Shown here: positions 18,360 to 63,600 of the stretch, piece by piece
Layout of the letters: every line of letters begins with the position of its first letter
Numbering within the stretch: position 1 is the first letter of the stretch
Assembly: GCF_000802235.1 (NCBI RefSeq)
Contig: NZ_JTDL01000089.1
Span: 1 to 64,000, forward strand
Origin: Sinomonas humi
GTDB taxonomy: Bacteria; Actinomycetota; Actinomycetes; Actinomycetales; Micrococcaceae
Length of the DNA stretch: 64,000 nucleotides
Direction: 5' to 3'
Made by a program: the position numbers and the translations under genes
The notes under the pieces: model-generated
The model's input: the letters and a program-made list of their open reading frames with translations, nothing else
The model's database searches: none
What the model was told of the DNA's origin: nothing

Positions 18360-19334
18360 GTGGTTCGGAAGCCCCGGGTCGTCGTGACCGACTTGGACCA
18401 GCCGTCGCTGGCGGAGGAGGAAGCGGTCAGCGCCGCCGAGGGGTTCGAACTCGTGCGGGCCGAGTGTCGCACTGAGGACGATGTCATCCGGGCCGGCGAG
18501 GGAGCCGACGCCCTGATCGTGCAGTACGCGCCGATCACTCGCGAGGTCTTCAAAGCCCTCCCGCATCTGAAGGTCGTGGCGCGGTACGGCGTCGGCGTCG
18601 ACACTGTCGACCTCGAGGCCGCCACGGACTCCGGCGTCGCGGTCTGCAATGTGCCGGATTACGGTACCGAGGATGTGAGCGATCACGCGATCGCCCTCGC
18701 GCTTAGCCTCGCCCGCGGCGTCGTCGGTCTTGACCGCGAAATGCGCAGCGGCAACTACTCCCTCGCTCCCGTCCAGCCGCTGCACCGTGTTGCCGGACGC
18801 ATCTTCGGCGTCGTCGGGCTCGGCCTCATCGGCGCCGCCACCGCGCGCAAGGCGCGCGGCGTCGGCTACGAGACCATTGGCTTCGACCCCGTCTTCGAGC
18901 CGGGGACGACGACGCCGGGGGGCACCGCCGTCGTGAGCTTCGACGACCTGATCCGCCGCGCCGATGTGATCTCGCTCCACGTGCCGCTCAATGCGCACAC
19001 GCGTCACCTCATCAATGCCGACGTCCTCGCGGCCATGAAGCCGGGGGCCATCCTCGTCAACACGTGCAGGGGCGGCGTCGTCGACACGGAGGCGTTGGTT
19101 GAGGCACTGCGCTCGGGAGGCATCCGTGCCGCCGGGCTCGACGTCTTCGAGCAGGAGCCGCTACCGAAGGACAGCCCGCTCTTCGCGTTGCCCAACACCG
19201 TGCTCACGCCGCACGCGGCCTGGTACAGCGAGGAGTCGCAGGTTGAGCTCAAGCGGCGCACCGCGCAGAATGTCGCGGACGTGCTCGCGGGAAGAAAGCT
19301 CAGGAACATCGTGAACCCGGAGGTATTGGCATGA
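18360..19334 (+). CDS. D-2-hydroxyacid dehydrogenase family protein (CtBP-like)
   Basis: 324 residues. Catalytic-domain residues come first (VVARYGVGVDTVDL), then the NAD-binding Rossmann motif GVVGLGLIGAATARKA, the arginine in LVNTCRGGVVDTEAL, the glutamate in GLDVFEQEPL and the histidine in LTPHAAWYSE. The last three form the Arg-Glu-His active site of the family. It reversibly oxidises a D-2-hydroxyacid with NAD. GTG 18360 has GGAAGGAG about 8 nt upstream. It is coupled to the following lldD by an ATGA overlap, so the pair probably handles related hydroxy acids. Confidence 0.88.
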   Translation: MVRKPRVVVTDLDQPSLAEEEAVSAAEGFELVRAECRTEDDVIRAGEGADALIVQYAPITREVFKALPHLKVVARYGVGVDTVDLEAATDSGVAVCNVPDYGTEDVSDHAIALALSLARGVVGLDREMRSGNYSLAPVQPLHRVAGRIFGVVGLGLIGAATARKARGVGYETIGFDPVFEPGTTTPGGTAVVSFDDLIRRADVISLHVPLNAHTRHLINADVLAAMKPGAILVNTCRGGVVDTEALVEALRSGGIRAAGLDVFEQEPLPKDSPLFALPNTVLTPHAAWYSEESQVELKRRTAQNVADVLAGRKLRNIVNPEVLA

Positions 19335-20653
19335 CGACGACGAACGCAATGTCGAATACGCCAGAGGCCAAGGCGGCCCCACAGCTCGAGGCGAGCCGCA
19401 AGCCGGGCAGCGCGCCCGCAGTGTCGGCACCCGATGCGCGCGTCCCCGTGCGGCGCCAGCTGCCCAAGATCTCCGAGGTGCGCGAACTCCTACAGTTCCG
19501 TGCCCCCGTCCTTGACCCTGTCCGGCGTCGCCTCGAGGGCGCGCTCACGATCGATGATCTGCGCAAGATCAGCCGCCGGACCACGCCGCGCGCGGTCTTC
19601 GACTACGTCGACGGCGCCGCCGAATCCGAGGTCACGGCTCAGCGCAACCTAGCGGCGTTCCGGGACGTCAAGTTCGTGCCGGAGACCCTGAACTCGGTGG
19701 CCGAGCCCGACCTTTCGACGGAGCTTTTCGGCGAGCGCATCGCGTTCCCGCTCGTCTTCGCACCCACCGGCTACACGCGGATGATGCACCACGAGGGCGA
19801 GGCCGCCGTGGCCCGCGTCGCGGAGCGCAACGGCCTCCCTTACTCGCTCTCGACCGTCGGCACCACGACGATCGAAGAGGTGCGGGACGCCGCCCCGAAC
19901 GGGCAGAACTGGTTCCAGCTCTACCTCACGAATGACGAGGCCCTCAACGAGGAGATGGTGGGCCGCGCGCTCGACGCGGGCTGCAAGACCGTGATTCTCA
20001 CTGTCGACACCGCCGTGGCGGGCGGACGGCACAAGGACACGCGCAACGGCCTGACGATCCCGCCGTCGCTCACGGTGAAGACGTTCCTCGACATGTCGCG
20101 CTTCCCGTACTGGTGGTTCAACAAGCTCACGACGCCGCCGATCAACTTCGCGTTGCTCCGCGACTACCCGGGGACCTCGGCAGATGTCGCCGCGATGCTC
20201 TTCGATCCGGGGCTCAACTACGAGGATCTCGAGTGGCTGCGCAAGGCGTGGCCGCACAACCTCCTCGTCAAGGGCATTACCAATCCCCAGGATGCGGCGC
20301 GCGTCGTCGAACTCGGCGCTGACGGCGTCGTCGTCTCGAACCACGGCGGCCGGCAGCTCGACCGGACGCCAGCGACGCTCGATGTCCTTCCCGCGGTCCG
20401 CGACGCGGTCGGAAGCGAGGCGACCCTGCTGCTCGACAGCGGCGTACGGAACGGCCAGGACATCGTTGCGGCGATTGCCCGTGGGGCGGACGCTGTGATG
20501 ATTGGGCGTGCATACCTGTACGGCCTCATGGCTGGCGGGGAGCGCGGGGTGGAGCGGGCCGTCGAGATCCTGCGGACCGAGTACCGCCGCGCGCTGCAGC
20601 TGCTCGGACTCAAGGAGACTCAGCAGATCTCGTCGCGCCACGTACGAGCGTAA
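19331..20653 (+). CDS. lldD: FMN-dependent alpha-hydroxy acid dehydrogenase (L-lactate dehydrogenase type)
   Basis: 440 residues. After a 70-residue extension, the FMN TIM barrel begins at FDYVDGAAESEVTAQRNL. The substrate and FMN motifs follow: FAPTGYTRMMHHEGE, LSTVGTTTIEEV, LLVKGITNPQDA, the catalytic His338 in VVSNHGGRQLDR and LLDSGVRNGQDI. The family oxidises L-lactate or similar 2-hydroxyacids to 2-oxoacids, feeding electrons to the respiratory chain. ATG overlaps the TGA of the dehydrogenase gene. L-lactate is the most likely substrate, but mandelate or glycolate cannot be excluded. Confidence 0.9.
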   Translation: MTTTNAMSNTPEAKAAPQLEASRKPGSAPAVSAPDARVPVRRQLPKISEVRELLQFRAPVLDPVRRRLEGALTIDDLRKISRRTTPRAVFDYVDGAAESEVTAQRNLAAFRDVKFVPETLNSVAEPDLSTELFGERIAFPLVFAPTGYTRMMHHEGEAAVARVAERNGLPYSLSTVGTTTIEEVRDAAPNGQNWFQLYLTNDEALNEEMVGRALDAGCKTVILTVDTAVAGGRHKDTRNGLTIPPSLTVKTFLDMSRFPYWWFNKLTTPPINFALLRDYPGTSADVAAMLFDPGLNYEDLEWLRKAWPHNLLVKGITNPQDAARVVELGADGVVVSNHGGRQLDRTPATLDVLPAVRDAVGSEATLLLDSGVRNGQDIVAAIARGADAVMIGRAYLYGLMAGGERGVERAVEILRTEYRRALQLLGLKETQQISSRHVRA

Positions 20654-20748
20654 GTTCGCGAAACCCGGCTTACCGCCGAAACCCCGGCTTACCGCCGAAA
20701 CCCCGCGATAGCGGCAGGGGTTTCGGCGGCCGGCGGGGGTTTCGGCGC
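20654..20748. repeat. 19-bp-period repeat block (3 direct + 2 inverted units)
   Basis: Five consecutive 19-bp windows fill 95 bp. Units at 20673 and 20692 begin CCGCCGAAACCCC, the one at 20654 is a degraded copy, and those at 20711 and 20730 carry the reverse complement GGGGTTTCGGCG(G). The inner pair forms a 13-bp perfect stem with a 12-nt loop between the convergent lldD and nuclease genes, so it could also terminate both. The same architecture with other words recurs in other gaps. Confidence 0.85.
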
Positions 20749-20756
20749 AGCGACGG

Positions 20757-21677
20757 TCAGGCACCAGCCTTGAGGACCGCGGCGATGCGTCGGCGCAGGC
20801 CGGCCTCGTCGAAGAGATCGCGCCACTCGATCCTGAGCAGGATCCAACCGCCTTCCATGAGCGCTCGTTCGCGCTTTCGCTCCCGTAGGAGTGCCTCGCC
20901 GGTCGGCTCGTACGCAAAGTACTTGATGTCGCCGTCGAACTCGATCCCGACCTTGAGTTTCACCCAGGCGAAGTCGAGGCGGTATCTTCCGAGCCGGGTG
21001 GAGACCTCGACCTGTTGATCGGGCATCTCGAAAGGCATGAGGGTGAGGAGATACCGGAGGAGGCTTTCCCCCGGGGATTCGCTCAGCTCCGAGGCCAGGC
21101 CCCAAGCGGCTCGTGCAGTTCGGATGCCTCTCTTGCCCTCCGCCGAGGCCAACAGGGCGTCGACCGCCTCACGGTCCGCTCCGAGCCTGAGCCCGTGGTC
21201 AAGCAGGATCTGTGCCTGGCCGCGCCGCATGATGCGAGCGGAATCGACGAGGGTTCGTTCGAGGGTGGTCGCCGGCAAGCCACGCAGGACGCACAGCTCG
21301 GAAGGGAGCAGCGTCCCGCTGTGGATCCTCACATCCTCTGCGCGGCCGCTCCGCCCGGGGCACCTTGGTGTTGTGACGTGGATGCTGCTGTCCACGTTCC
21401 AGAGGTGGAGGCCGTGGAGCCGGGCTGCGCTCACGTGGCTGTAGGCGTACGCCGCCTCCCTGCGCCGGGCGGCCTCCTCGTGATGAGCGGCCAAGACCAT
21501 GAGGTGGCGCTCCTCCTCTGAGAGGCCGGTCCACGCAGCTGCTTCGTAGTAAGCACCTCGCCTGATTCTTGCTACAGCCCTTGCCTGTAGCAGCCGGTCG
21601 GCGGCCTTCGAGGAGCCAAAGCGATCGTTCAGCTGAGAGGTCAGCCACGGGCCAGGGTGGGGCAGCACGAGTTCCAT
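20757..21677 (-). CDS. AbiEi-like HTH protein with C-terminal DUF559/Vsr-type nuclease domain
   Basis: 306 residues. The N-terminal 70 residues look like the winged-helix region of AbiEi-type proteins (LLQARAVARIRRGAYYEAAA). The C-terminus has a PD-(D/E)XK-like pattern, RYRLDFAWVKLKVGIEFDGD, with Asp and Glu-x-Asp in the order seen in DUF559/Vsr nucleases. Function is unproven; genes of this kind are common and scattered in actinobacteria. A full-length paralogue lies at 50828-51751. This copy is bracketed by repeat blocks on both sides and shares the upstream element TTATCCACATAG with the paralogue. Confidence 0.75.
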   Translation of the reverse strand: MELVLPHPGPWLTSQLNDRFGSSKAADRLLQARAVARIRRGAYYEAAAWTGLSEEERHLMVLAAHHEEAARRREAAYAYSHVSAARLHGLHLWNVDSSIHVTTPRCPGRSGRAEDVRIHSGTLLPSELCVLRGLPATTLERTLVDSARIMRRGQAQILLDHGLRLGADREAVDALLASAEGKRGIRTARAAWGLASELSESPGESLLRYLLTLMPFEMPDQQVEVSTRLGRYRLDFAWVKLKVGIEFDGDIKYFAYEPTGEALLRERKRERALMEGGWILLRIEWRDLFDEAGLRRRIAAVLKAGA

Positions 21678-21725
21678 GTGTTGAATCTGTCAGGGGCGGA
21701 GGGGGCAGCGCCGCACGGTCCGGCT

Positions 21726-21737
21726 CTATGTGGATAA
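21726..21737 (-). promoter_or_regulatory. Element TTATCCACATAG shared with the paralogue gene
   Basis: On the minus strand this 12-mer ends 48 nt before the nuclease-gene ATG. The same 12-mer precedes the paralogue at 50769-50780 by 47 nt. It may contain a -10 box (TATCCA), or be a protein-binding site; its first 9 bases equal the E. coli DnaA-box consensus. Confidence 0.6.
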
Positions 21738-21751
21738 CTGCCGAGGCGATG

Positions 21752-21907
21752 GATGTCACGAGGCCTATGGGCGCCGCGATGTCACGAGGCCTATGGTCGC
21801 CGCGATGTCACGAGTCCCACGGGCGCCGCGATGTCACGAGGCCTATGGTCGCCGCGATGTCACGAGTCCCACGGGCGCCGCGATGTCACGAGGCCCACGA
21901 CGACCGC
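21752..21907. repeat. Six 26-bp tandem repeats
   Basis: Units start at 21752, 21778, 21804, 21830, 21856 and 21882, each beginning GATGTCACGAG and ending with CGCCGC or a variant. The middles alternate between GCCTATGG and TCCCACGG types, so units 2+3 and 4+5 are copies of one 52-bp block. The array is upstream of the leftward nuclease gene and is noncoding in any convincing frame. It has no spacers and is not a CRISPR. Confidence 0.9.
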
Positions 21908-22049
21908 CGAAACCCCTCGTTGTCGGCGGGGGTTTCGGCGGCTGACAGGGGTTTCGGCGGGAGAGAGGTGGGGCTGCCGGGGGTTTCGGCGGGTGGCGGG
22001 GGTTTCGGCGGGGGAGAGGTGGATCTGGCGGGGGTTTCGGTCGGGGAGT
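21904..22049. repeat. GGGGTTTCGGCGG array with 19- and 32-bp steps
   Basis: One inverted copy (21904-21916) is followed by direct copies at 21929, 21948, 21980 and 21999 and a variant at 22031. Steps are 19, 32, 19, 32, so two 51-bp blocks (19 + 19 + 13) stand in tandem. The word is the same as in the block at 20654-20748, so this word flanks the nuclease gene on both sides. Confidence 0.85.
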
Positions 22050-22128
22050 CTGCCACAGAGAGGCCGAACCATGCCCGCGTCGGTTAGGGTCGATGCAACC
22101 GACTCGTTCTCCGAAAGCAGGGGGAGCT

Positions 22129-23025
22129 ATGCGCGCAGAATCGACCGTCGAGGGTCTCATGGGACCGCTCGAGCTTCTTTTCACGGGCACGATCTGGGCT
22201 GAAGGTCCAGTATGGGTCCCGTCGTCGCAGACCGTCCGATGGAGCGACATCCCCAACAACCGAATCCTCGAGTTCGAGCCATCGACCGGGCAGACACGCG
22301 AGTACGCCACAGGGGTGGAGTTCACGAACGGCCGCACGCTCGACGCCGATGGGAGCGTGGTGCAGTGCAGTCACGGCCGGCGCAGGGTCGAGCGGGACCG
22401 CGATGGCGTGGTGACCGCCGTCGTCGATTCCTTCGAAGGCAGGCGGCTCAACTCGCCGAACGACGTCGTCGTTGCGCGCGACGGCACGGTCTGGTTCACG
22501 GACCCGCCCTACGGCATCCTCCCAGGCACAAACGAGGGCCACGAGGGGGAGCAGGAGTACGGTGCTTGCTACGTCTTCCGGTGCGGGCCCGGAGGAGAGG
22601 ACCTCACGCCGGTCGTGACCGACATGGTGCATCCGAACGGGCTCGCGTTCTCGCCGGACGAGTCCCTCCTTTACGTCGCCGACACCGCCGGTCTGCGTCA
22701 CGACGTGCCGTTCCGCATCGCCGTCTATGACGTCGTCGGGGGCAGCTGCCGCAACGGCCGCACCTTCGTGGAGCTCGACGACGCTCACCCTTCCGACGGA
22801 TTCCGAGTCGATGTCGAGGGCCGGGTTTGGACCTCGGCCGGACCCTCGGTGCGCGTCTACGCGCCCGACGGGGCGCTCCTCGCCGAAACTGAGTTGCCCG
22901 AGACGGTTTCCAACGTGTGCTTCGGCGGCCCGGACGGGCACGAGCTCTACATCACGGCCACGACGAGCCTCTACCGCCTGCGCACCACCACCCGCGACGC
23001 AGCCCAAGCCAGCCGCGTCGGATGA
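22129..23025 (+). CDS. SMP-30/gluconolactonase-like protein
   Basis: 298 residues, a six-bladed propeller. Metal and catalytic landmarks are visible: Glu in WAEGPVWVP, Asn in RRLNSPNDVVVARDG, Asn in MVHPNGLAFSPDESLLYVAD and the Asp in VADTAGLRHD. These proteins hydrolyse sugar lactones with a divalent metal. ATG 22129 is preferred over 22093 because the -10-like TAGGGT (22085-22090) would start transcription after 22093, and GGGGGAG lies close before 22129. The next gene overlaps by ATGA. The sugar substrate is unknown. Confidence 0.82.
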   Translation: MRAESTVEGLMGPLELLFTGTIWAEGPVWVPSSQTVRWSDIPNNRILEFEPSTGQTREYATGVEFTNGRTLDADGSVVQCSHGRRRVERDRDGVVTAVVDSFEGRRLNSPNDVVVARDGTVWFTDPPYGILPGTNEGHEGEQEYGACYVFRCGPGGEDLTPVVTDMVHPNGLAFSPDESLLYVADTAGLRHDVPFRIAVYDVVGGSCRNGRTFVELDDAHPSDGFRVDVEGRVWTSAGPSVRVYAPDGALLAETELPETVSNVCFGGPDGHELYITATTSLYRLRTTTRDAAQASRVG

Positions 23026-27821: not shown

Positions 27822-27916
27822 CGGACGTTTGACGCGAAGGCGCAGGTTTAGCCCCAGAGAGCACGTTTGACGGTGCTGAAACGTGCGCCCTCGGAGGAAA
27901 CGTGCGCCTTCGCCTT
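27822..27916. repeat. 19-bp-period repeat block (3 direct + 2 inverted units)
   Basis: Five 19-bp windows fill exactly 95 bp. The word (C/G)GTTT sits at the same column of units 27822, 27841 and 27860, and its complement AAAC(G) opens units 27879 and 27898. The inverted repeats GCACGTTT/AAACGTGC (27861-27868, 27879-27886) and GCGAAGGCGCA/TGCGCCTTCGC (27834-27844, 27903-27913) nest inside. It lies directly after the stop of the leftward small membrane gene and may act as its terminator. Confidence 0.8.
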
Positions 27917-39531: not shown

Positions 39532-39607
39532 GAGACCGCACTTCCCGGACGAGACCGCAGCTCGTTACCTGCGGTCTCGTCCGGCAAGTGGGGGTTCGCT
39601 AGGCGAA
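39532..39607. repeat. 19-bp-period repeat block and 22-bp inverted repeat
   Basis: GAGACCGCA opens the 19-bp units at 39532 and 39551. Its complement TGCGGTCTC opens the unit at 39570, and a 6-of-9 match opens 39589. Arms 39539-39560 and 39569-39590 pair with one mismatch over 22 bp and an 8-nt loop, a very strong hairpin 17 bp after the malic enzyme stop, so it probably terminates that gene. No T tract follows. Confidence 0.8.
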
Positions 39608-46041: not shown

Positions 46042-46626
46042 GTGACCATCCCTGCCCTCGACCAGAAGACCGCCCTCGTAGTCATCGACCTGCAGAACGG
46101 GATCGTGAACCGCCCGCAGCCTCCCGCTGACGGCTCGAGCGCCCCCTCGATCCCGGAGGTCGTCTCGAACTCGAAGGCCCTTGCCGACGCGTTCCGGGCG
46201 AACAGCCTGCCTGTCGTCCTCGTGAACGTTGCGGGTGCACCCGCGGGTCGCAACGAGACGCCGCGCCGGATGCCGGCGGACATTCCGGCCGACTACTTCA
46301 ACCTCATCGACGGCCTCAACACCTCTTCGGAGGACATCCTCGTGACCAAACGGAGCATCGGCGCGTTCGCGACGACCGATCTTGACGCCCGCCTTCGTGA
46401 GCGCGGAGTGACGCAGCTCGTCTTCACGGGCATTGCGACGAGCATAGGGGTCGAGTCGACGGCCCGCTACGCGTACGACCTCGGCTACAACCTGGCGTTC
46501 GCCCGGGACGCGATGACGGACCTCACGGCGGCCGCTCACGAGTATGCGGTCGGCACCGTCTTTCCGCGGATCGGCGAGTCCGGAACGACCGAGGAGATCC
46601 TCGGCCTCCTCGCCGAGCGGTCTTGA
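46042..46626 (+). CDS. Isochorismatase-like hydrolase lacking the usual cysteine
   Basis: 194 residues. The catalytic aspartate (ALVVIDLQNGIV) and lysine (LVTKRSIGAFATTDL) are present. At the place of the nucleophilic cysteine (normally T-x-x-C-V-x-x-T-A) the sequence reads GIATSIGVESTAR, with glycine. True isochorismatases such as EntB and PhzD also lack the cysteine and use the aspartate, while cysteine hydrolases need it. So it may be an isochorismatase-type hydrolase of unknown substrate. GTG has AAGGAG 6 nt upstream. Its stop overlaps the TTG start of the MFS gene. Confidence 0.82.
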   Translation: MTIPALDQKTALVVIDLQNGIVNRPQPPADGSSAPSIPEVVSNSKALADAFRANSLPVVLVNVAGAPAGRNETPRRMPADIPADYFNLIDGLNTSSEDILVTKRSIGAFATTDLDARLRERGVTQLVFTGIATSIGVESTARYAYDLGYNLAFARDAMTDLTAAAHEYAVGTVFPRIGESGTTEEILGLLAERS

Positions 46627-48053
46627 CGGACCGCGAGGACAAGACGCCGCAGGCGACGACGACGGGGGGCGAGGCCTCGGGGGGCAAGGCGCCGGAGGCC
46701 AAGGCCTTCGGCGTCCGCTACCTCGGGCCCCTCCTTCTCGGTTCGACGCTGAATCCCATCAACAGCTCGATGATCGCCACGGGCCTCATCGGGATCGGAA
46801 GCGAGTTCCACCTCGGGCCCGGCCAGACGGCTTCGCTCATCTCGGTGCTGTACCTGTTCAGCTCCGTCATGCAGCCCACGATGGGCAAGCTCGCTACGCT
46901 GCTGGGCCCTCGGCGCGTGTTCGTTACGGGAATCGTCATCCTGCTCGTCGCGGGCCTCGTGGGCGCGCTCGCGCCGTCGTTCGCATTCCTGCTCGTCTCA
47001 CGCGCACTCATCGGCATCGGAACGTCCGCGGCGTATCCCACGGCGATGGCGCTCGTACGGGCCCGCGCCGATGCACGCGGCGTCGGCGTCCCGAGCCGGG
47101 TGCTCGGCGCCTTCTCGATCGCGGCCCAGGTGACGATCGTCGTCGGCCTCCCGCTCGGCGGGATCCTCGTGAGCACGCTCGGATGGCGCGCGCTGTTCAG
47201 CGTCAACATCCCGCTCGCGCTCGTGACGCTCGTGGCGACCCTCACTGGCGTCGAACGCGACGCCAAGCGGAACCAGGCGTCCTGGAAGGCGCTCGTCCAC
47301 GCGCTCGACCTGCCGGGAATCGCACTGTTCGGCGGCGCCGTCGTCGCCCTGCTCGTGTTCCTCTCGGGCCTCGCCGAGCCGCAGTGGTGGCTCGCCGCCG
47401 TCGCCCTCGTGCTCGCGGCTGCGTTCATCTGGCGCGAGCGGCGCGCGTCGAGCCCGCTCATCGACGTCCGCGCGCTCGCGAGCAACGGCCCCCTCCAGCG
47501 GACCTACTCACGGCAGCTCTTGGTGGGCCTCGGGATCTATGCGTGCATGTACGGGATGAGCCAGTGGATGGAGGAGGGGCGGGGCCTCGATGCGGCTGCG
47601 GTCGGGGTGATCATGATTCCGCTCTCGCTCGTGAGCATTGTGGTCGCCAGGCTCGTGTCGCTGCGCGGCTGGGTGCGGGTGCCGCTCATCCTGGCCGGTG
47701 CCGCGCTCGTGGGGACTGCCGCCATGATGGGGATGACGAACGCAGGGACCTCTGTGGTGCTGCTCGTCGTCATGACGAGCCTGCTCGGCCTCACGAACGG
47801 CTTCGCAGGGTTCGCGAACCAGACTGCGCTCTACGTGCAGGCGCCCGGGGACGGCATCGCCGTTGCGGCCGGCCTCTACCGGACGTTCAACTACATGGGC
47901 GCCATCTTCTCCTCCAGCCTTATCGGCCTCGTCTTCGGTGCGCGCGCGACGGACCCTGGATTCCACTCGCTCGCGTGGGTTCTCGTGGGGATCGGCGCCG
48001 CCGTGCTCGTCATGACGATCGTGGACCGGAGGATTCCGCGAGTCGCGAGGTGA
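46623..48053 (+). CDS. MFS drug-type transporter
   Basis: 476 residues, about 14 helices. TM1 reads GSTLNPINSSMIATGLIGIG and loop 2-3 GKLATLLGPRRVFVTG, with RALIGIGTSAAYPTAMALV in TM4, all consistent with the EmrB/QacA-like group. The start is TTG, overlapping the upstream TGA (TTGA), so translation depends on the hydrolase gene. With the MarR gene upstream the set looks like a regulator-enzyme-exporter module. A 17-bp tandem triplication runs over its last codons and stop. Confidence 0.83.
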   Translation: MTDREDKTPQATTTGGEASGGKAPEAKAFGVRYLGPLLLGSTLNPINSSMIATGLIGIGSEFHLGPGQTASLISVLYLFSSVMQPTMGKLATLLGPRRVFVTGIVILLVAGLVGALAPSFAFLLVSRALIGIGTSAAYPTAMALVRARADARGVGVPSRVLGAFSIAAQVTIVVGLPLGGILVSTLGWRALFSVNIPLALVTLVATLTGVERDAKRNQASWKALVHALDLPGIALFGGAVVALLVFLSGLAEPQWWLAAVALVLAAAFIWRERRASSPLIDVRALASNGPLQRTYSRQLLVGLGIYACMYGMSQWMEEGRGLDAAAVGVIMIPLSLVSIVVARLVSLRGWVRVPLILAGAALVGTAAMMGMTNAGTSVVLLVVMTSLLGLTNGFAGFANQTALYVQAPGDGIAVAAGLYRTFNYMGAIFSSSLIGLVFGARATDPGFHSLAWVLVGIGAAVLVMTIVDRRIPRVAR

Positions 48054-48089
48054 GACGAGTCGCGAGGTGAGACGAGTCGCGAGGTGAGG
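48040..48089 (+). repeat. 17-bp tandem triplication across the MFS stop codon
   Basis: GAGTCGCGAGGTGAGAC begins at 48040, 48057 and 48074; the third copy ends GG instead of AC. The first copy holds the last codons and the TGA of the MFS gene, so the extra copies are untranslated. Such arrays are prone to change in copy number. Confidence 0.9.
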
Positions 48090-50539: not shown

Positions 50540-50768
50540 CGGGTTCTCCTTGTCACTGCCCGGACGAAGTCAGGCTATCTCGCCAAACGGGGAAGCATCA
50601 GGGGAGGTTCCCGGAGGGTTCCCTGAGCGACCCCTGAGCTCGAGCCGCGGTGGGGCCAGCGACGAGCCTCCTGGCCTGACAGCGACGCCCCACGAAACGG
50701 ACGACGCCGCACCGCATTACCTCTGGTTTCGTCACTTTGCTCCGCGTTCGGTGTGCGAACGCCCTCCA

Positions 50769-50780
50769 TTATCCACATAG
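50769..50780 (+). promoter_or_regulatory. Element TTATCCACATAG shared with the paralogue gene
   Basis: Identical to the 12-mer at 21726-21737 (minus strand) and located 47 nt before ATG 50828, against 48 nt there. The surrounding leader also shares AGATTC just before the start codon, but is otherwise different. Confidence 0.6.
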
Positions 50781-50827
50781 GCGCTGTGATCGACCCTCTG
50801 CCGGGCGGAAACTGGGAGATTCGAGAG

Positions 50828-51751
50828 ATGCACCTCGACTTTCCACACCCAGGGCCTTGGCTGGCCGCAGACCTCGCAGACCGGCTCGGGTCGCCCAAAG
50901 CGGCAGAACGCCTTGTCCAGGCCGGCGTCCTCACGCGGATCCGCCGTGGCTCCTACTATCTGGCCGAGGAATGGAAGAGTCTCCCACCCGAGGACCAGCA
51001 CCTGGCCGTACTGTCGGCCCACTACGACAACGCGTCGCGCCGGCGCGAGATCGGCTTCGACTACAGCCACCTGAGCGCGGCCAGACTCCACGGCATCCAC
51101 CTCTGGAATCCAGACCCCCACGTGCACCTGACGATGCCGCGGTGCCCGAGCACCAAGGGGCGGGCGGATGACGTCAGGATCCACTCGGCGATCCTGGCTG
51201 ACGACGATCGCAGCACCATCCGGGGGCTGCCGGCGACCTCGCTCGATCGAACCCTGGTTGACTGTGCGCGGATTCTGCGGCGCGGCCAAGCACAGATTGT
51301 CATGGATCACGGTGTCCGTCTCGGGGCCGATCCTTCTCGGATCACGGATCTCCTGGCCGAAGCCCAAGGGAAGAGGGGCGTGCGCATAGCCCGTGCTGCA
51401 TGGGAAATGGCCTCCGGCCTTTGCGAATCGCCCGGCGAAAGTCTCCTGCGCTACCTGCTCAGTCGGATGCCATTCGAGCTGCCGGCTCAGCAGGTAGGGG
51501 TCCCGACGCGCCTTGGGACCTACAGGCTCGACTTTGCATGGGTGAGGATCAAGGTGGGGCTCGAGTTCGACGGTGACATCAAGTACTTCGCCTACGGTCC
51601 CACTGCCGAGGTGCTGCTCCGAGAGCGGAAGCGTGAGCGTGCCCTCATCGAGGAAGGATGGATCCTGTTGAGAGTCGAGTGGAAGGACCTCTTCGACGAG
51701 ATCGGGCTTCGTCGGCGGATCGGCACAGCTCTGGCGGCGGCGGGACGGTGA
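50828..51751 (+). CDS. AbiEi-like HTH protein with C-terminal DUF559/Vsr-type nuclease domain (paralogue)
   Basis: 307 residues, colinear over its whole length with the protein encoded at 20757-21677; segments such as IRRGSYY, YSHLSAARLHGIHLWN, SPGESLLRYLL and EFDGDIKYFAY are shared. Start MHLDFPHPGPWL corresponds to MELVLPHPGPWL of the paralogue, so ATG 50828 is used rather than the longer frame. Nuclease-like residues (YRLDFAWVRIKVGLEFDGD) are intact. It lies 143 bp upstream of the JetABC operon in the same direction, so a link is possible but unproven. Confidence 0.75.
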   Translation: MHLDFPHPGPWLAADLADRLGSPKAAERLVQAGVLTRIRRGSYYLAEEWKSLPPEDQHLAVLSAHYDNASRRREIGFDYSHLSAARLHGIHLWNPDPHVHLTMPRCPSTKGRADDVRIHSAILADDDRSTIRGLPATSLDRTLVDCARILRRGQAQIVMDHGVRLGADPSRITDLLAEAQGKRGVRIARAAWEMASGLCESPGESLLRYLLSRMPFELPAQQVGVPTRLGTYRLDFAWVRIKVGLEFDGDIKYFAYGPTAEVLLRERKRERALIEEGWILLRVEWKDLFDEIGLRRRIGTALAAAGR

Positions 51752-51762
51752 TCGGCGTTCCC

Positions 51763-51820
51763 GACACTGCAGGTGACGACACCGCAGGTAACGGACGGCG
51801 GCGCAGGTAAGGGACTGCGG
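51763..51820. repeat. GCAGGT(A/G)A triple repeat, partly 19-bp spaced
   Basis: Copies of GCAGGT at 51769, 51784 and 51803; the last two are 19 bp apart and sit at the same column of 19-bp units. The word CCGCAGGTAACG (51782-51793 region) also occurs, inverted, in the loop of the block at 39532-39607. Confidence 0.6.
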
Positions 51821-51880
51821 TTTGGTCCGTTTGCTCGGGTTTCGCGCAGAACGTCGGACGAGCGCGGGGCGCGGCGCCGG

Positions 51881-51894: not shown

Positions 51895-53496
51895 GTGCCA
51901 GAACCCGCCGCGAGTCGACCCCGCCCTGCTTCCGGGGCGCCGTCGTCGGCCGCGATGCTCGGGCGCCTCGCGGAACTCGAGGTGCTCACCAAGGGCCCCG
52001 CGTGGGCCCTCACCCGCTCGGCGCCGTGGGTCATCGCAGCCCTCCAGACTGCGTTCACGCGCAACCGGCCCCATGTCGAGCTCGAGGCCTTCCACGACGA
52101 GATCGACGAGTTCCTCGCAGAACTCCGGGCGCGGGATGCCGCGATCGGGGCCCCCAGCACGGCGGGAGCGCTCACTGGCCGCCTCGTCGCCGACGACTGG
52201 ACCCGCCGCCGCTTCCTCGCACGCCGGGCACAGGGCGGCCGCATCGTCTATGAGCTCACCGAGCCTGCTGCTCGCGTTCTCGCCTTCTTGGACTCGCTCT
52301 CCTCCGACCGCTCCACGCTGACCGGCTCGCGCCTCGGCACCCTGCTCGCGGACGTCGAGAAGCTCGCCCAGGAGACCAACCCGGATACGAGCGCGCGCGT
52401 CGAGGCGCTCGAGACCGAGATCGGGGAGCGACGCGAGATGATCCGCGGGCTCGAGACCGGGGAGATCGACGCGGCCCTCGAGGCCGACGACGCCGTCGAG
52501 GCCGCCGAGAACATCCTCGACCTCGCGGCCGGGCTGCCGGCCGACTTCAAACGCATGCGCGACCGGATCGAGGAATCCGTCGGCCAGCTGCGCAACCAGA
52601 TCATCGAGGAGTCGCTCAGCAAGGGCGCCACGATGGCGCAGGTCCTCGAGGCCGACCGGCGGCTGCGCGAGTCGAGCGAGGGCCGCACGTTCCGCTCGTT
52701 CACCGCGTTCCTCGAGAATCCCGAGCAGCAGCTCCGCTTCCGGTCCGCCATCGCTGAGGTCCTCTCGCGCGATTTCGCCGACCGCCTGGGTGCTGAGGAA
52801 CGCCAAACCCTTCGGCACCTCGTCGCCGAGCTCCGCGACCAGCACTCCGAGATCCAGGGCATCTACGGAAAGCTCTCGGAGAGCCTCAACACGTACGTTC
52901 AGAGCGACGACTACCGCCAGTCCGTGCGCCTCCGCGACGCCATCCGGCGCGCCGAGCAGGCCGTGCGGCGGCTTCCGTACCAACGCGAGCAGGCCGCGTT
53001 TGCGCCCGCGCCTGAGCTGTTCGGGGCCGAATTCGATTCGCTCTCGATGGTGAAGCTCTTCGATCCCGACGAGTACGTCGCCCCTCCGCGCTTGGCCGAG
53101 CCGATCGCGTTCGCGGAGGAGGACCGCGTCCGCTCGGCGCGCACGGGCAAGGCGAGGGCCGCGGCGCTGCGGCAGGCGTTCGACGTCGCGCTCGCCGGCG
53201 GAGGCGGCCGGGCCACCGCCGCGAGCGTCTGGCGGGAGCTGCCGCCCGAGGAGCAGCACATCAACTCGATCCGCGCGCTGCTCGGCGAGCTTCTGCATCG
53301 AGGCGCGCTGTTCGCCGGAACCGATGACGACGGCGCGGCGGCCGAGTGGGAGGCCCTCGACTTTGAGCAGGTGGACGGCTCGACGCGCCGCGCGTATGTG
53401 CCGGCCGTGGAGGTCCACGGGGCGCCGACGAGGGGCGGGCAGATGAAGGGCGGCGAGATGAGGGTCGGCGAGATCCAAGAGAGGGGCACGGCATGA
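51895..53496 (+). CDS. jetA: JetA/MksF-like kleisin subunit (DUF3375)
   Basis: 533 residues. The N-terminal winged-helix part ([50 protein letters not shown]) is followed by helices (about 140-330) with [20 protein letters not shown] and a C-terminal winged helix ([20 protein letters not shown]). This layout and order match DUF3375, the kleisin of Wadjet/MksBEF SMC complexes, which bridges the heads of the ATPase. The last 30 residues are Gly/Met-rich. It heads a three-gene coupled operon; its TGA overlaps the jetB ATG. Confidence 0.88.
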
Positions 53497-54284
53497 TCGA
53501 GGACATCGAGCCGGACGTGAGCGAGGCCGAGTCCTCCTCTGGCCGGCTCGCCAACGCGGCGGCCCTGTACGACGGCGACACGGGTCTCCTACCGCTGCGC
53601 GTGCGGCAGGTCCTCGTGCGCCTTCTCAAGGGTCCCTATCTGGACGGCGGCCGCGACGAGCGCCTGTGGACGACCCTGCTCGACAGCCAGGACGTGCTGC
53701 GTTCACGCCTGTCGGAGCTCTTCCTGAGCCTGCACGTCGACCACGCGCGGAAGATCGCCGTCGTCCGCCCCGTCGACCCCGAGCTGCTCGGTACGGCTTC
53801 GCGGTCGACGATCCTGCGCCAGCAGCGCGCCTTGAGCCGAGTCGAGACGATCCTGCTCCTGCGCCTCCGGCTGCTCCTCGACCGCCACACGACAGCCCAG
53901 ACCGAGCCGACGGTCACGCTCGAGGAACTCTCCGACGTCGTCGCCCACTACCAGCCCTCCGATCAGCGCGACGCCCTCCGCGACGCCGACACCATCTCGC
54001 GCGCCGTCCAGAAGCTGCAGGCGCGCCGGCTCCTCCTGCCCACACCGCTCGACGACGTCTACCTCATCTCGAACGCGCTCCCGCTCGCGCTCCCGTTCGA
54101 GAACATCGGGGACGTCGCGCGGCATCTCGAGGCGCTCGCAGAGGCCCCGGACGCCGGCACCCTGGACGGTGCGGACGCCGGCGGAGAGGACGACGACGGA
54201 GCGCACCCCACGCTTGACCTCGACGGCGTTGTGCCGGGTCAGGAAGGCGACGAGGATCCGGCTGACGAGGAGGGGATCGAATGA
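53493..54284 (+). CDS. jetB: JetB/MksE-like KITE subunit (DUF4194)
   Basis: 263 residues. Winged-helix features of DUF4194 are seen ([74 protein letters not shown]). The final 45 residues are an acidic linker-like tail. It is expected to sit on the kleisin as in MukE/MksE. ATG overlaps the jetA TGA and its own TGA overlaps the jetC ATG. Confidence 0.86.
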
Positions 54285-57200
54285 GCATCGCGACCATGCT
54301 CCCGCTCGACGACCAGATCAACCCGGGACAGTTCAGGCTGACCCAGGTCCAGATCGTCAATTGGGGCACGTTCCACGGTGCGCACAGGATGCACGTGGAC
54401 CGCGCGGGCACCCTCCTGACGGGCAACTCGGGGGTCGGCAAGTCGACGCTCTTCGATGCGATCGCCCGGGTGTTCGACGCCCGGCCGCGCTCGAACGAGG
54501 CGGCAGCGGCGCGGACCGGCCAGAGCGAGGACCGGCGTACGACCTTCACGTACATGCGCGGGAAGGTCGGCGATGTGGCCGTCGGCGAGAGCCAGGCCAG
54601 TGCGTTCCAGCGCCCCGGCGCGACGTGGAGCGCGATCGCCCTCACGTTCGACAACGCCGCCGGCACCCGCCACACGCTCACGGCCCTGTTCGACCTGCCG
54701 AAGAACGGCACCGAATCGAGCCTCGGGCGCTTCTACCTCATCGACCAGGCCCCGCTCGACGTCCACGCCATCGAGGGCATCGCCGACCGGCGGTTCACGC
54801 GCGGGGCGCTCGAAGCGCTGTTCCCCGGCGCCCAGGTGTTCGACGTCCACAAGAATTTCGCCGAGCGCTTCCGCCGCCTCCTCGGCATCTCGTCGGACCA
54901 GGCCCTTCCGCTCCTGCGGGTCATCCAGGCTGGGAAGGGGCTCGGCGGAAGCGTCAACAGCTTCTTCCGCGACCAGGTCCTCGACCCGCCGGAGACGCTC
55001 GCGGCCGCGGATCAGGTGGTCGAGGAATTCAGCAACCTCATGTCCATACGGCAGCGCCTCGAGGACGTGCGCGAGCAGCGCGACCAGCTCGCGCCCGTGC
55101 CTGCGCTCAACCAGCAGTACGCGCAGGCCCTCCTCGACGCCAACCGCCTCCGCGATCTCTCGGGCGAGGCGTTCGAGCGGGTGCGGCAGCAGCTCACCGT
55201 GGGCGTGCAGGAGCGGATTACGGCACGGGCCGCCGAGGCCGCCCAGTCGAAGGCGGCCGAGCTCGCCGCCGAACGCAAGGTCCGCGACGCGCTCGCGAAG
55301 GAGCTCCGCGCCCTCGAGGCCGAGTACAACAACGCGGGCGGGAACCAGATCAGCGCCCTCGAGCAGCAGACCGAGAACGCTCGTGTGGGCCTGCGGCTTC
55401 GTCGGGAGGTGGAGGCTGCCGCACGCCAGGGCCTGGACGACGCCGGGTTGCAGCTTCCATGGTCCGCCGAGGGCTGGGCGGCGGCCCACGAGGAGGCCGC
55501 GGCCGCGACCGAGTCGCTCGAGGGCGATTCCGCAGCTCTGCGAGAGGCGCGCTTCGAGGCCTTCGACGCTCATGCTTCCGCCAAACGCGACCTCGCCGAA
55601 GCCCACCGCGAGCTCGAGTCGATGGCCGTGCGCAAGAGCCTGCTGCCGCCGTCGTCCGTCGAGAACCGCGCCGCGATCGCCGCGGCCACCGGCGTCCCCG
55701 AGGAAGCAATGCCGTTCGCGGGGGAGCTCATCGACCTCGCGGACGGCCAGGAGAGGTGGCGGCCCGCCGCCGAGCGGGCCCTCCGCTCGCTCGCGACGAC
55801 GCTGCTCGTCCCCGGCGAGCACTTCGCCGCCGTCACCCGCTACCTCGACGCCCATACCGTCCGTGGTGCGCTGCGCGCCGTCGACCTCTCGGTGCCCGTG
55901 TCCGGCTCTGCCCAGGCGCTCGCCGACGTGCGCGGCGACGACCTCCTCACGAAGCTCCAGATCCTCGACGGGGAGGCTGGAGACTACGTGCGCGGCCGCA
56001 TCGCAACGGAGTTTGCCTACCCCTGCTTGGAGAACCCGGACGAGCTCGCGCTGCTGGACCGGGGGCTGAGCCTCGGCGGCGTCGTGAAGCGGCACCGGGG
56101 CACCGTCGAGAAGGACGACCGGTTCGCTTCGCGCCAGGACTGGGTCCTCGGCTTCGACAATGCGGTGAAGGTCGCCGACCTCACGGCCCGCATCGCGGAG
56201 CTTGAGGCCGCTCTCGCCCGCGCTGCGGAAGCCGCGCAGGCGAGCGAGGACTCGCATCAGGGCATGGCACGCCGTCTCGAGGCTCTTCGCCGCGTGGCGG
56301 CCGACCCGCGGCCTTGGGAAGAAGTCTCTGCCGCCGTCGCCGAGGAGGAACTCCGGCGCGCCGAGAAGCGCCTGGAAGACGCCCGCGCCGGGCAGGCGGA
56401 CCTCGAGCCGCTGCGCGCGAAGGTCGAGCGAGCGCGGGCCGACCATCAGGCGTCCACCGAGACAGCGGCCGTCTTCCAGAGTGAGCATCGGCATCTCGAC
56501 GCCGCCGCGTCCTCGGCGGCGCGTCTGCTCGAGGCGGCGCGGGACAAGTTGGCCGAGATGCGGCCCGGGGCGGAGTCCTCCTCGGGAGACGAGGCCCTCG
56601 TGCCGTACTTCGAAGGTGCCGCCGAGCTCACCGAGCTCCACGCGCTCGACACCCTCGCAGCAGACGTCAGGGCCCGCCTGCTCGAGGAACTGCACGCGGC
56701 CGAGAGCCGTGGCCAGTCGGCGGCGGAACGGCTCACCCGCATCTTCGAGGCATTCGAGCGGGACTGGGGCCCGGGCGTCTCCGCGGACCACGGCGTCTCG
56801 GTGGCGGCGGCGAGCGCGTTCGAGGCGCGTTACCACGAGATCGTCTCCGAAGGGCTGCCCACGCAGGAGGCCGAGTTCCGCCGGTTCTTCCAGCAGCGCA
56901 CGCACGAATCGTTCAGCACGCTCCTGCATCTGCTCGACGAGGAGCGGCGGGCGATCTCGGCGAGGATCCTGCCGCTCAACAGCATCCTCGGCGGGGTCGG
57001 CTTCCACGAGGGGAGCTACCTCGAGCTCGACATCAAGCAGACCGTTCCAGCCTCGGCGCGGCAGTTCAAGGAGGCCATCGTGTCGGCGCTCAAGGCGCGG
57101 CATGCCGTCGAGACTGCCGAACCCGCCCGAGAGGATGCCCTAGCCGCTCGCTACAAGACGCTCGAGACGCTCGTGAAGCGCCTCGCCTCGTCGGCTCCCG

Positions 57201-57712
57201 AGGATCGGCGCTGGCGGGCTGAGGTCCTGGACGTCCGGACTCACGTGTTCATCTCGTGCAAGGAGCACCGTGCCGTCAGCCTTCCGGGCGGCCAGACGCG
57301 GGACGAAGTGTTCGTCCACTCCGACACCGGCAGCATGTCCGGCGGCGAGCGGCAGCGCTTCACGGCGTTCATCATGGCCGCGGCGCTCAGCTACCAGCTC
57401 GGCATCGCCGAGCAGGGCTTCACGACGTACGGCACCGTGATGATGGACGAGGCCTTTGTGCTGGCATCCGAGGAGTTCGCAGGGGCGGGGATCTCGGCGC
57501 TGCACGAATTCGGGTTCCAGCTCCTGCTCGCCGCACCCGAGAACGTCATCGACCTCTCACGGCACCTCGGTTCCGTGACGGAGATCCTCCGCGACCGCCG
57601 GACCAACCGTTCGGGGCTCCTCGAGGGCCTCGGAAAGGCTCGCGAGGAGGGCGAGGGAAGCCCGCTTTCGCAGGCCAACCCCGTGGACATCGTGCTCCGC
57701 ACGCCCGTGTAG
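54281..57712 (+). CDS. jetC: JetC/MksB-like SMC ATPase
   Basis: 1143 residues. Walker A is GNSGVGKST (residues 48-56) after [11 protein letters not shown], which is typical of MukB/MksB/JetC proteins. Long coiled coils run from about 240 to 430 and 620 to 820 around a hinge-like middle. The ABC signature SMSGGERQR starts at 1018 and Walker B VMMDEAF at 1053. The protein should form a dimeric DNA-loop-extruding motor with JetA and JetB. All ATPase motifs are intact. The jetD position downstream is occupied, after 32 bp, by an MFS gene. Confidence 0.92.
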
Positions 57713-57744: not shown

Positions 57745-59184
57745 ATGGCTACGGAAGAGCGCTCGGCGGAGGGAGGCCACGGCTGGCGAGCCGTCGCCGT
57801 CGTCCTCGTGGGAGCCTTCATGGCTCTCCTCGACACCACGATCGTCAATGTCGCGCTGCCGTCGATCCGCACAGGCCTGCATGCCTCGCCGGCCAGCCTC
57901 GAATGGATCGTCTCCGGCTACGCGCTGGCCTACGGACTCGTGCTGGTTCCTGCTGGCCGCATCGGCGATCGGATCGGACACAAGTGGCAGTTCATTGCAG
58001 GCCTCGCACTGTTCACCCTCGCGAGCGTGGCCTGCGGCCTGTCCGCGACACAAGGCCAGATCATTGCCGCGCGCATCGTGCAGGGCGTTGGCGCGGGAGT
58101 GTTCTATCCGGCCATCTCCGCGACGATCCAGCTTTCGTTCACCGGTCACCAGCGGTCCAAGGCCTTCGGGACGATGGGCGCCGTCATCGGCGTCGCAACA
58201 GCGCTTGGGCCCGTCCTGGGCGGTCTCATCATCCAGGCAGCGGGCCCGGTCGACGGCTGGAGGTGGGTGTTCCTCGTCAACCTCTTCGTCGGAGTGGTCG
58301 CGCTGCCGGTGGCCGCCTGGCTCCTGCCGCGGCCGACGGCGCGCACCCGGCGAAGCATTGACCCCGTAGGTTTGGGGCTGCTCACCTCGGGCCTCCTGCT
58401 CGTGCTGATACCGCTCGTCGAGGGACAGCCGAGCGGGTGGCCCCTCTGGACGTACCTTGCCTTCGGGGCGTCGGTTCCTGTGCTGGTCCTGCTCGCGCTG
58501 TGGGAAGTGCGCACCGAGCGGCGGGGCGGTGACGCCCTGCTGAAGCCGAGCCTGCTCTCGCGCTCGTCGTTCTCAGCAGGGGCGGTGTTCGCGATCGTCT
58601 ATTTCGCGGGGTTCACGAGCGTCCTGTTCACGCTCTCGATCCTGTGGCAGGTCGGTCTCCAACGGAGTGCTCTGGCGAGCGGGCTGGTCTTCACGCCGTT
58701 CGCGCTGGGCAGCCTGATCGGGGCTTCCAGCAGTGCAAAGCTCTCGGCCCGCCTGGGCCGCATGGTGCTGGTCACGGGGTGCCTTCTGGTCGCGGCAGGC
58801 CTTGCCGGGGTCACGGCGGTGCTCTACCTGACCGCGCCGAGCCCAGGCGGGTGGGAACTGGCGGGCCCACTGATCGTGGCGGGGTTCGGGAGCGGGATCG
58901 TGATCGCGCCGAACCAGGATTTCGTCATGGCCTTCGTCCCGCCGCCTGAAGCCGGGACGGCGAGCGGTACCCTCACGACCGCCCAGCGCGTCGGCAATGC
59001 GGTTGGCATCGCCGTGGTCGGCACCGTGCTCTTCGGCACGGTGAGCGTGCGCCCCGGGCCGGACGGCGTAGCGCGCGCGTTCGCTTCAAGCGCTCAGCTC
59101 GCCATGCTCGTCAGTGTGGCCTTCGTCCTCGTTTCCCTCTTTCTCGTGATCGCTCTCCCGCGGCAGGTTCCGTCCCGCAAGTAG
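57745..59184 (+). CDS. MFS drug efflux transporter, DHA2 type, 14 TM
   Basis: 479 residues. TM1 contains FMALLDTTIVNVALPSI, the classical DHA2 motif, with GRIGDRIGHKWQFIAG in loop 2-3 and RIVQGVGAGVFYPAISATI in TM4. It is 32 bp downstream of jetC and may be read from the same transcript, but its function (proton-driven export of drugs) has no evident link to the SMC complex. ATG has GAGGAT 4 nt upstream. It ends before the LCP gene with a 203-bp gap. Confidence 0.87.
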   Translation: MATEERSAEGGHGWRAVAVVLVGAFMALLDTTIVNVALPSIRTGLHASPASLEWIVSGYALAYGLVLVPAGRIGDRIGHKWQFIAGLALFTLASVACGLSATQGQIIAARIVQGVGAGVFYPAISATIQLSFTGHQRSKAFGTMGAVIGVATALGPVLGGLIIQAAGPVDGWRWVFLVNLFVGVVALPVAAWLLPRPTARTRRSIDPVGLGLLTSGLLLVLIPLVEGQPSGWPLWTYLAFGASVPVLVLLALWEVRTERRGGDALLKPSLLSRSSFSAGAVFAIVYFAGFTSVLFTLSILWQVGLQRSALASGLVFTPFALGSLIGASSSAKLSARLGRMVLVTGCLLVAAGLAGVTAVLYLTAPSPGGWELAGPLIVAGFGSGIVIAPNQDFVMAFVPPPEAGTASGTLTTAQRVGNAVGIAVVGTVLFGTVSVRPGPDGVARAFASSAQLAMLVSVAFVLVSLFLVIALPRQVPSRK

Positions 59185-63540: not shown

Positions 63541-63600
63541 GAAGTCACCCTCTCGCGGAGAAGTCACCCGCGAGCGAACTTCTCTGCGAGAACGTAACTT
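63541..63600. repeat. 19-bp-period repeat block (2 direct + 2 inverted words)
   Basis: GAAGTCACCC at 63541 and 63560 are 19 bp apart. The inverted word (A)ACTT at 63577-63581 and 63596-63600 is also 19 bp apart. CTCGCG/CGCGAG and GAGAAGT/ACTTCTC form hairpins inside. It lies in the divergent gap between the heme monooxygenase and GNAT genes. Confidence 0.7.

Follow-up and report, generated by a model that had tools for sequence, protein, structure and literature searches.

A 19-bp repeat block of Sinomonas humi as the probable end of a nuclease gene cassette with cognate word arrays

The block of five 19-bp units at positions 20654–20748 of the Sinomonas humi DNA analysed here (a stretch of 64,000 nucleotides, the window) is probably one end of a selfish cassette, in which a nuclease gene is coupled to arrays of a cognate repeat word and which would work like a RAYT/REP system built from unrelated parts. 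Comparison of sequences revealed matching arrays on the two sides of such genes, co-variation of word and protein, a period that goes with the protein clade, an upstream motif, dispersal of some words, one insertion and one swap. Since gene-less copies of some words are scattered about, the cassette has the appearance of self-spreading DNA of a kind not yet described. No earlier description of nuclease-linked word arrays was found in open-licence PMC full text, and one may exist elsewhere in print; a first-pass annotation of the window had likewise known of no named repeat family of this kind, and none was found in the same body of text.

The block at 20654–20748 and the cassettes of the window

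The block takes up the space that separates an FMN-dependent dehydrogenase gene (19331–20653) from a nuclease gene (20757–21677), starting right past the dehydrogenase stop codon and ending 8 bp short of the stop codon of the minus-strand gene. The five-unit structure described in the first-pass annotation was confirmed: CGAAACC stands at the same column at 20654, 20673 and 20692 and GGTTTCG at 20711 and 20730, and the block score was reached in 0 of 2000 shuffles (23 lag-19 7-mer matches, maximum of 6 in 2000 dinucleotide shuffles). Five further blocks that it had listed each exceeded all 2000 of their own shuffles. The features of the window are as follows, with G numbers denoting genomes compared.

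20654–20748, plus strand: downstream word block of cassette 1; 19-bp units of CGAAACC(CC), the first three direct and the last two inverted (+++--), between two convergent stop codons
20757–21677, minus strand: nuclease gene 1, 306 aa; AbiEi-like at about residues 27–192, Vsr-like MTES_1575 nuclease domain at 222–290
21729–21737, minus strand: DnaA-box-type motif TTATCCACA of cassette 1, about 50–60 bp upstream of nuclease gene 1
21752–21895, no strand assigned: 26-bp tandem repeat GATGTCACGAGGCCTATGGGCGCCGC, 5.5 copies, with the TTATCCACA motif on one side and the upstream array on the other; cassette membership uncertain
21906–22040, no strand assigned: upstream word array of cassette 1; the word of 20654–20748 at spacings of 19 and 32
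27822–27916, plus strand: gene-less block, ACGTTT/GCGCACGTTT word; divergent genes on either side; no cognate nuclease identified in the genome
39532–39607, plus strand: gene-less block, GAGACCGCA word, akin to that of cassette 2; arrays of other words at the orthologous site in G007 and G001
50693–50731, plus strand: upstream word block of cassette 2, CGAAACGGACGACG...CTGGTTTCG; boundaries by eye
50769–50777, plus strand: DnaA-box-type motif TTATCCACA of cassette 2, 17 bp before the called start at 50786; homology begins at 50828
50786–51751, plus strand: nuclease gene 2, AbiEi plus MTES_1575 (weak, E 0.0021); 67% identity to gene 1
51767–51846, plus strand: downstream word block of cassette 2; CCGCAGGTAACGGAC units at 19 bp, then inverted CGGTTTGG/GGGTTTCG; boundaries by eye
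63541–63600, plus strand: gene-less block, GAAGTCACC/CTCGCGGAGAAGT word; divergent genes on either side; by eye like the flanks of paralogue L096

Folded as a single strand, 20654–20748 forms nested hairpins (z −4.5), and five blocks treated in this way were each more stable than all of 200 shuffles (z −3.05 to −8.95). The fold of 39532–39607 is one hairpin with 16 consecutive pairs across word and spacer; as the pairing runs through the spacer, this block is not merely a set of spaced words. A scan for hairpins followed by a T-run, which may miss actinobacterial terminator types, gave 0 sites in 20500–22300, and no Rfam family reached its gathering score in the window. Some hairpins, at 2023–2182 and at other sampled intergenic sites, in relatives as well, have the stem word CGACGACGGC/GCCGTCGTCG (by eye), perhaps a separate, shared terminator-like word. 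A 17-bp repeat, CGAGTCGCGAGGTGAGA, spans the 3' end of the gene at 46623–48053 in 2.9 copies (48039–48088).

Periodicity was assessed in 815,555 bp (18% of the genome, window included) with 454 intergenic regions of at least 40 bp; the contigs were a non-random sample, every one having a GCCGAAACCCC match, and genes were called by our own script. A direct 8-mer match at lag 19 was found in 21 of the 454 regions compared with 2.8 expected, and at lag 32 in 16 compared with 2.2 (means of five shuffled sets). The 19-bp observation therefore withstands the comparison with shuffled intergenic DNA that had been proposed as its check. The idea of one common period held only in part: 19 bp is in excess, but other periods occur too, namely 31/32 bp here and 21/22 bp in relatives. 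Similarly, many words do exist, as had been noted, but they are not particular to single blocks, several recurring as families in the genome. The sampled arrays, with their many words and two main periods (19 and 31/32), are often direct-then-inverted and favour the 3' ends of genes, a bias for which selection alone could be a sufficient cause. An intergenic region of 1.4 kb (L064:1684-3116, G000:C69) consists mostly of CGAAACCCC units at mixed 19/32-bp spacing and contains larger internal duplications.

The protein of nuclease gene 1 matched the PADLOC AbiEi model (E 1.2e-13) and, weakly, PF18741 (MTES_1575; E 3.9e-6, 27.3 bits, below the Pfam cut-off of 38.2); the MTES_1575 family is termed a novel Vsr-REase by its authors (PMC3710099). 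In Foldseek searches with an AlphaFold model (pLDDT 91.7), the N-terminal part matched the AbiEi antitoxins 6y8q (E 2.9e-4) and 1zel (E 2.1e-3), and the C-terminal part matched the catalytic domain of I-Bth0305I (3r3p; E 0.029, TM on target 0.81, 2.3 Å). Residues D235, E246, D248 and K252 were invariant across 46 homologous proteins. A sequence search of the PDB returned nothing up to E 1, and NCBIfam gave one weak match, far under its cut-off.

Nuclease gene 2 has its own word, related to that of cassette 1, on both sides, which accounts for the block noted earlier at 51782. Immediately downstream of cassette 2 lie Wadjet-type jetA, jetB and jetC (51955–57712), and the next gene, in the place of jetD (57745–59184), had no PADLOC model match at 1e-5. 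The G013 counterpart of the interval 21752–21895 is short and, by eye, may contain one or two diverged copies of the 26-bp repeat. The genome has about a dozen AbiEi-nuclease paralogues, and no AbiEii (DUF1814) toxin partner was found among the flanking genes scanned for six of them.

Arrays, words and periods around the nuclease genes

Two-sided arrays were scored as the inverted match between a gene's own upstream and own downstream flank. In the source genome, 12 AbiEi-nuclease genes, retained from 14 loci, were set against 483 control genes; 5 of the 12 scored above all 483 controls, and the other 7 fell among the controls, with L094 and L095 at mid-range. The two loci not retained were L099 (score 23.5), discounted on account of both flanks reading as coding sequence of aldo-keto-reductase-like neighbours, and L078, a 172-aa Vsr-like gene without an AbiEi part.

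The same score was compared with that of swapped flank pairs in further sets of loci. Those from 15 comparison genomes (the source genome and 14 relatives of its genus) belong to clade A (EFDGxxKY) or clade B (EYEGxHH). The named set consists of the best 80 of 503 loci found, mostly from Arthrobacter and its kin, with at least three (L100–L102) from genomes also in the Sinomonas set. The wider-class set consists of 20 shorter ORFs from 12 families, picked by length and by family or genus, 30 loci with open frames of 575–2355 aa (L332–L361) being left out. Own pairs scored 22.5 against 10.3 for swapped pairs in Sinomonas clade A (23/33 above the 95th percentile of swaps), 32.7 against 11.9 in clade B (17/29), 20.5 against 11.6 in the named set (29/80) and 23.4 against 10.3 in the wider class (13/20; the seven that did not stand apart were L362, L363, L367, L373, L374, L379 and L381). 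From these sequence matches, arrays on both sides appear to be a trait of most such genes, not of all. Of 148 genomes taken from the whole breadth of the class, 101 had PF18741 matches, the best-scoring being large proteins of other architecture.

Co-variation of word and protein was measured across loci, by inverted matching of the upstream flank of each with the downstream flanks of the others, a score that does not result from simply aligning orthologous flanks. It correlated with protein identity (Spearman 0.60 for the 80 named loci, 0.30 for clade A and 0.61 for clade B), and 0 of 500 permutations reached any of these values, counts that overstate independence since the loci in each set share descent. 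In the named set a word was common to at most about 1% of pairs per bin below 55% identity and to about 70% at 70–80%; in Sinomonas, sharing was 5–8% at 45–55% identity and, above 75%, 60% (A) or 100% (B). The word thus appears to follow the protein, homologues below 55% identity rarely sharing one and those above 70–75% usually doing so.

A comparison was made of 12 elements that share one conserved site, next to a common neighbour gene (which we take from its sequence to be asd). The left and right blocks matched in 10 of the 12 (score 14–38) and were unmatched in L208 and L179, while 111 of the 132 between-element comparisons scored below 15. Given the match within elements and the mismatch between them, a change of the gene tends to be accompanied by a change of both its flanks.

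The period varied with the clade. In clade A, to which the named loci are assigned here, lag 19 was found in 29/80 downstream and 35/80 upstream flanks of the named loci compared with 0/160 in-gene windows, and in 24/33 downstream and 21/33 upstream flanks of Sinomonas clade A compared with 0/33. In the 29 downstream flanks of clade B the lags were 22 (in 9), 44 (in 8), 21, 42 and 18 (in 6 each), 19 (in 5), 32 (in 4) and 31 (in 3), so the period is more varied in B than in A. These lags indicate that the period is largely set by the protein clade, at 19 bp in A and mostly at 21/22 or 31/32 bp in B, which fits reader monomers packing at a clade-specific spacing. The AbiEi-type protein Rv2827c is described as binding four tandem 23-bp repeats at once (PMC7319586). 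The suggestion in the first-pass annotation of a protein that reads spacing thereby finds good, if indirect, support: the arrays accompany an AbiEi-nuclease gene, their period tracks the clade and their word tracks the individual protein. Reading of the word by the predicted AbiEi part is strongly implied.

A motif, TTNTCCACA, which we take to be the DnaA-box consensus, was searched for from −200 to +30 of the homology start. It was present at 30/33 clade A and 28/29 clade B genes (58 of the 62 Sinomonas genes) and at 53 of the 80 named loci, compared with 0/198 (A), 0/173 (B) and 0/473 (named) control windows. Its orientation was forward in 30/30 of clade A and reverse in 28/28 of clade B; among the named loci it was forward in 49 and reverse in 4. 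In the own-genome sample each of the four perfect TTATCCACA sites immediately precedes an AbiEi-like gene (L042 judged by eye), and several of the 11 TTNTCCACA sites in all do not precede such genes.

Dispersed words and signs of movement

Copies of the cognate words were counted in the noncoding DNA of the own-genome sample with hand-picked longer words, each compared with its reversed control; a count based on 9-mers was dropped as too noisy in GC-rich DNA. Words of L090 (18 against 0), L087 (24 against 0), L077 (26 against 2), L092 (19 against 2), L094 (7 against 1) and, for L091, GAGACCGCAG (5 against 1) were in excess. No clear excess was found in this sample for L093 (2 against 1), L096 (2 against 2), L075 (4 against 2), L080 (0 against 2), L095 (0 against 0), L098 (4 against 5) or the second word of L091 (2 against 2). 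Two words of relatives were not widely dispersed: GCGAGAAGTGCCC had 6 copies in G014, 5 of them at its nuclease, and 0–2 elsewhere, and CCGCTTCTCCTTG, the word of an allele in G011, had 4 copies in G011, 3 in G010 and at most 5 in others except G008, which had 9, spread over four places. Dispersal is thus uneven and concerns some words only. The 33 gene-less word regions comprised 13 convergent, 16 co-directional and 4 divergent gaps; convergent gaps made up 13/33 of them compared with 70/454 in the sample (P 4e-4 by region, 0.017 by bases). Words like GCGCACGTTT of the 27822 block were present in G013 and G014, in the interval orthologous to it, and in G001 at a different site.

One word, GGGACCCCGCAAC, had 132 copies in G001 (taken as Sinomonas albida LC13), 9 of those listed being beside its own nuclease, a clade-B enzyme that it flanks. 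Five other genomes had 8–17 copies, one had 2 and eight had 0–1; the reversed control was absent from all 15. In 20 fetched regions of G001 its spacings were nearly all 22, and 10 of 21 clusters lay between convergent genes. Copies are also present in G004 and G006, where the clade-B nucleases that were read go with variant words; the relation of word to enzyme is therefore not one-to-one.

Several orthologous sites bear on movement. Between window genes 45 and 46 there are 65 bp in two of G000, G013 and G014 and 66 bp in the third, compared with 320 bp in G001; the G001 array consists of 22-bp GGGACCCCGCAAC units in both orientations, begins shortly past the stop codon and is a clean insertion, with no obvious target duplication by eye in this one insertion looked at. 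A further comparison, in which a single G001 array had an orthologous site in the sample, showed the array to be absent there, with boundaries that were not clean. At the dehydrogenase-adjacent site the full cassette is found in G000 and G013 and a gene-less ++-- block in G007; in G014, where the next gene comes immediately after the dehydrogenase, only a single GGGTTTCG remnant is left.

G010 and G011 share 97.8% identity across 179 kb and have one site where gene and flanks are replaced. Surrounding DNA is 99.4% and 98.0% identical over 1000 columns on the two sides, and the 100 columns just before and the 100 just after the swap are 100% identical, compared with 66.8% for the gene; the alleles have differing downstream words, and G010 lacks a clear upstream block. 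This cassette swap could be ordinary homologous recombination. Between contigs C1 of the two genomes (L382–L401) there are 11 indels of at least 15 bp, of which at least 5 are 19-, 21-, 22- or 37-bp changes in intergenic repeat-rich DNA, suggesting rapid turnover of units.

A shared layout without a shared sequence had been taken to argue against a mobile element. This claim is unsupported, since the genomes contained copies without the gene and showed an insertion, an unoccupied site and an exchanged cassette; differing words are what a family of cassettes with protein-specific ends would be expected to have.

Mechanism, alternative explanations and related systems

The putative cassette is built as a word array, a DnaA-box-like motif, a gene for an AbiEi DNA-binding/Vsr-homing-endonuclease-like nuclease, and a second word array. 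Its AbiEi part would read the words with one monomer per unit, the period being set by the packing of neighbouring monomers on DNA. The nuclease part would nick or cut DNA at the arrays, whose palindromic blocks can form hairpins, and repair would place copies of array units, of whole gene-less blocks and sometimes of the entire cassette in intergenic DNA, frequently on the 3' side of genes. Co-evolution of protein and word would give each paralogue a private word, and the gene-less blocks would be non-autonomous offspring. From comparative sequence data we infer that the protein binds and cuts, that repair makes the copies, that DnaA couples the cassette to replication and that cassettes move.

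The chances are about even that this extends to a mobile family across the class Actinomycetes, in which an AbiEi-Vsr protein spreads its own word, the clade determines the period, the protein the word, and the DnaA box a replication-tied expression. Were this so, a class of actinobacterial intergenic repeats would be explained, much of the so far unexplained intergenic repeat DNA of these bacteria being footprints of the element; AbiEi-Vsr nucleases would lengthen the short list of known routes for the multiplication of short palindromes in bacteria; a testable role could be assigned to a common gene family (PF18741); and the homologues with differing words and spacings would form a natural series of data for learning how DNA-binding targets change.

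It is unlikely that the AbiEi-nuclease is only an autorepressor or regulator, the arrays being no more than its binding sites and the dispersed ones a regulon. AbiEi-type proteins do autoregulate through inverted repeats, Rv2827c binding four that are 23 bp long and lie in tandem (PMC7319586), and the arrays here flank a gene with a DnaA-box-like motif upstream. However, operators would not account for arrays downstream of the gene as well, for a clean gene-less insertion or for differing array words at one orthologous site, and only 4 of the 33 gene-less word regions lie between divergent genes, compared with 13 convergent and 16 co-directional.

Bidirectional terminators or boundary hairpins of use to the host, expanding by replication slippage and only secondarily associated with the nuclease, are an improbable explanation. 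The stability of the five blocks relative to all 200 shuffles, the enrichment in convergent gaps (13/33 against 70/454) and the unit-length indels between G010 and G011 would all fit, but slippage leaves unexplained the co-variation of protein and word, the clade-specific period and the presence of one word at many loci. Furthermore, two blocks of the window have divergent genes on either side, and the scan of 20500–22300, from which actinobacterial types may escape, gave no hairpin with a T-run.

There is similarly little likelihood of a defence or genetic-conflict system in which the nuclease attacks incoming DNA and the arrays serve as marks, baits or immunity signals. The matches of the AbiEi part to defence-system models, the position of cassette 2 beside Wadjet jetA/B/C and the exchange of a cassette between near-identical genomes, in the manner of defence alleles, are what this would predict; against it, none of the scanned neighbours of six paralogues was an AbiEii partner, there is no sign that the arrays protect, and 132 genomic copies of a word are not obviously needed.

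Among known systems, the closest are REPtrons, RAYT-REP and REPINs, in which, according to PMC3733652 (see also PMC3116915), a gene for a DNA-processing enzyme lies between palindromic, hairpin-forming repeats that also have gene-less intergenic copies, here seen for some words only. Unlike the HUH tyrosine transposase of REP elements, the enzyme here is of AbiEi-Vsr type by Pfam, PADLOC and Foldseek; the cassette words differ by locus and share no GTAG head (by eye); and the cassettes have periodic arrays (19, 21/22 and 31/32 bp), TTNTCCACA upstream and a private word for each paralogue. Type IV toxin-antitoxin AbiEi proteins (S. agalactiae AbiEi and Rv2827c) have a fold similar to the N-terminal two thirds, and such antitoxins are described as binding multiple inverted repeats (PMC7319586), comparable to the cassette arrays. 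They differ from the present proteins, which have a fused C-terminal nuclease domain and no AbiEii in six neighbourhoods scanned, and whose arrays stand to the left and right of the gene and, in the case of some words, at other genomic sites too. In the structural model the C-terminal domain resembles the catalytic domain of the Vsr-like homing endonuclease I-Bth0305I. Unlike that enzyme, the nuclease is chromosomal, fused to AbiEi and placed between repeated word arrays; the persistence of words on both sides of the gene argues against classical homing, in which the enzyme cuts the empty allele and its own gene destroys the site.

Transposons such as Tn402/Tn5053, Tn7 and IS21 have several short binding sites per end, in opposite orientation between the ends, and Tn402-type ends carry 19-bp repeats. 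The multiple, oppositely oriented short sites at each end of the cassettes are alike in this, but it is very improbable that they are the ends of an ordinary DDE transposon with the nuclease as cargo: in the own-genome loci read, the arrays enclose the gene of the AbiEi-nuclease, with its Vsr/I-Bth0305I-like nuclease fold, and no DDE transposase, the one clean insertion had no obvious target duplication by eye, and gene-less arrays of some words outnumber the gene-bearing units. At L049:6447-7270 an apparent insertion-sequence end (GTGATGTCTCAGG...) abuts a GGGTACAGCTACTCC array (by eye), as if the arrays were targets of other elements.
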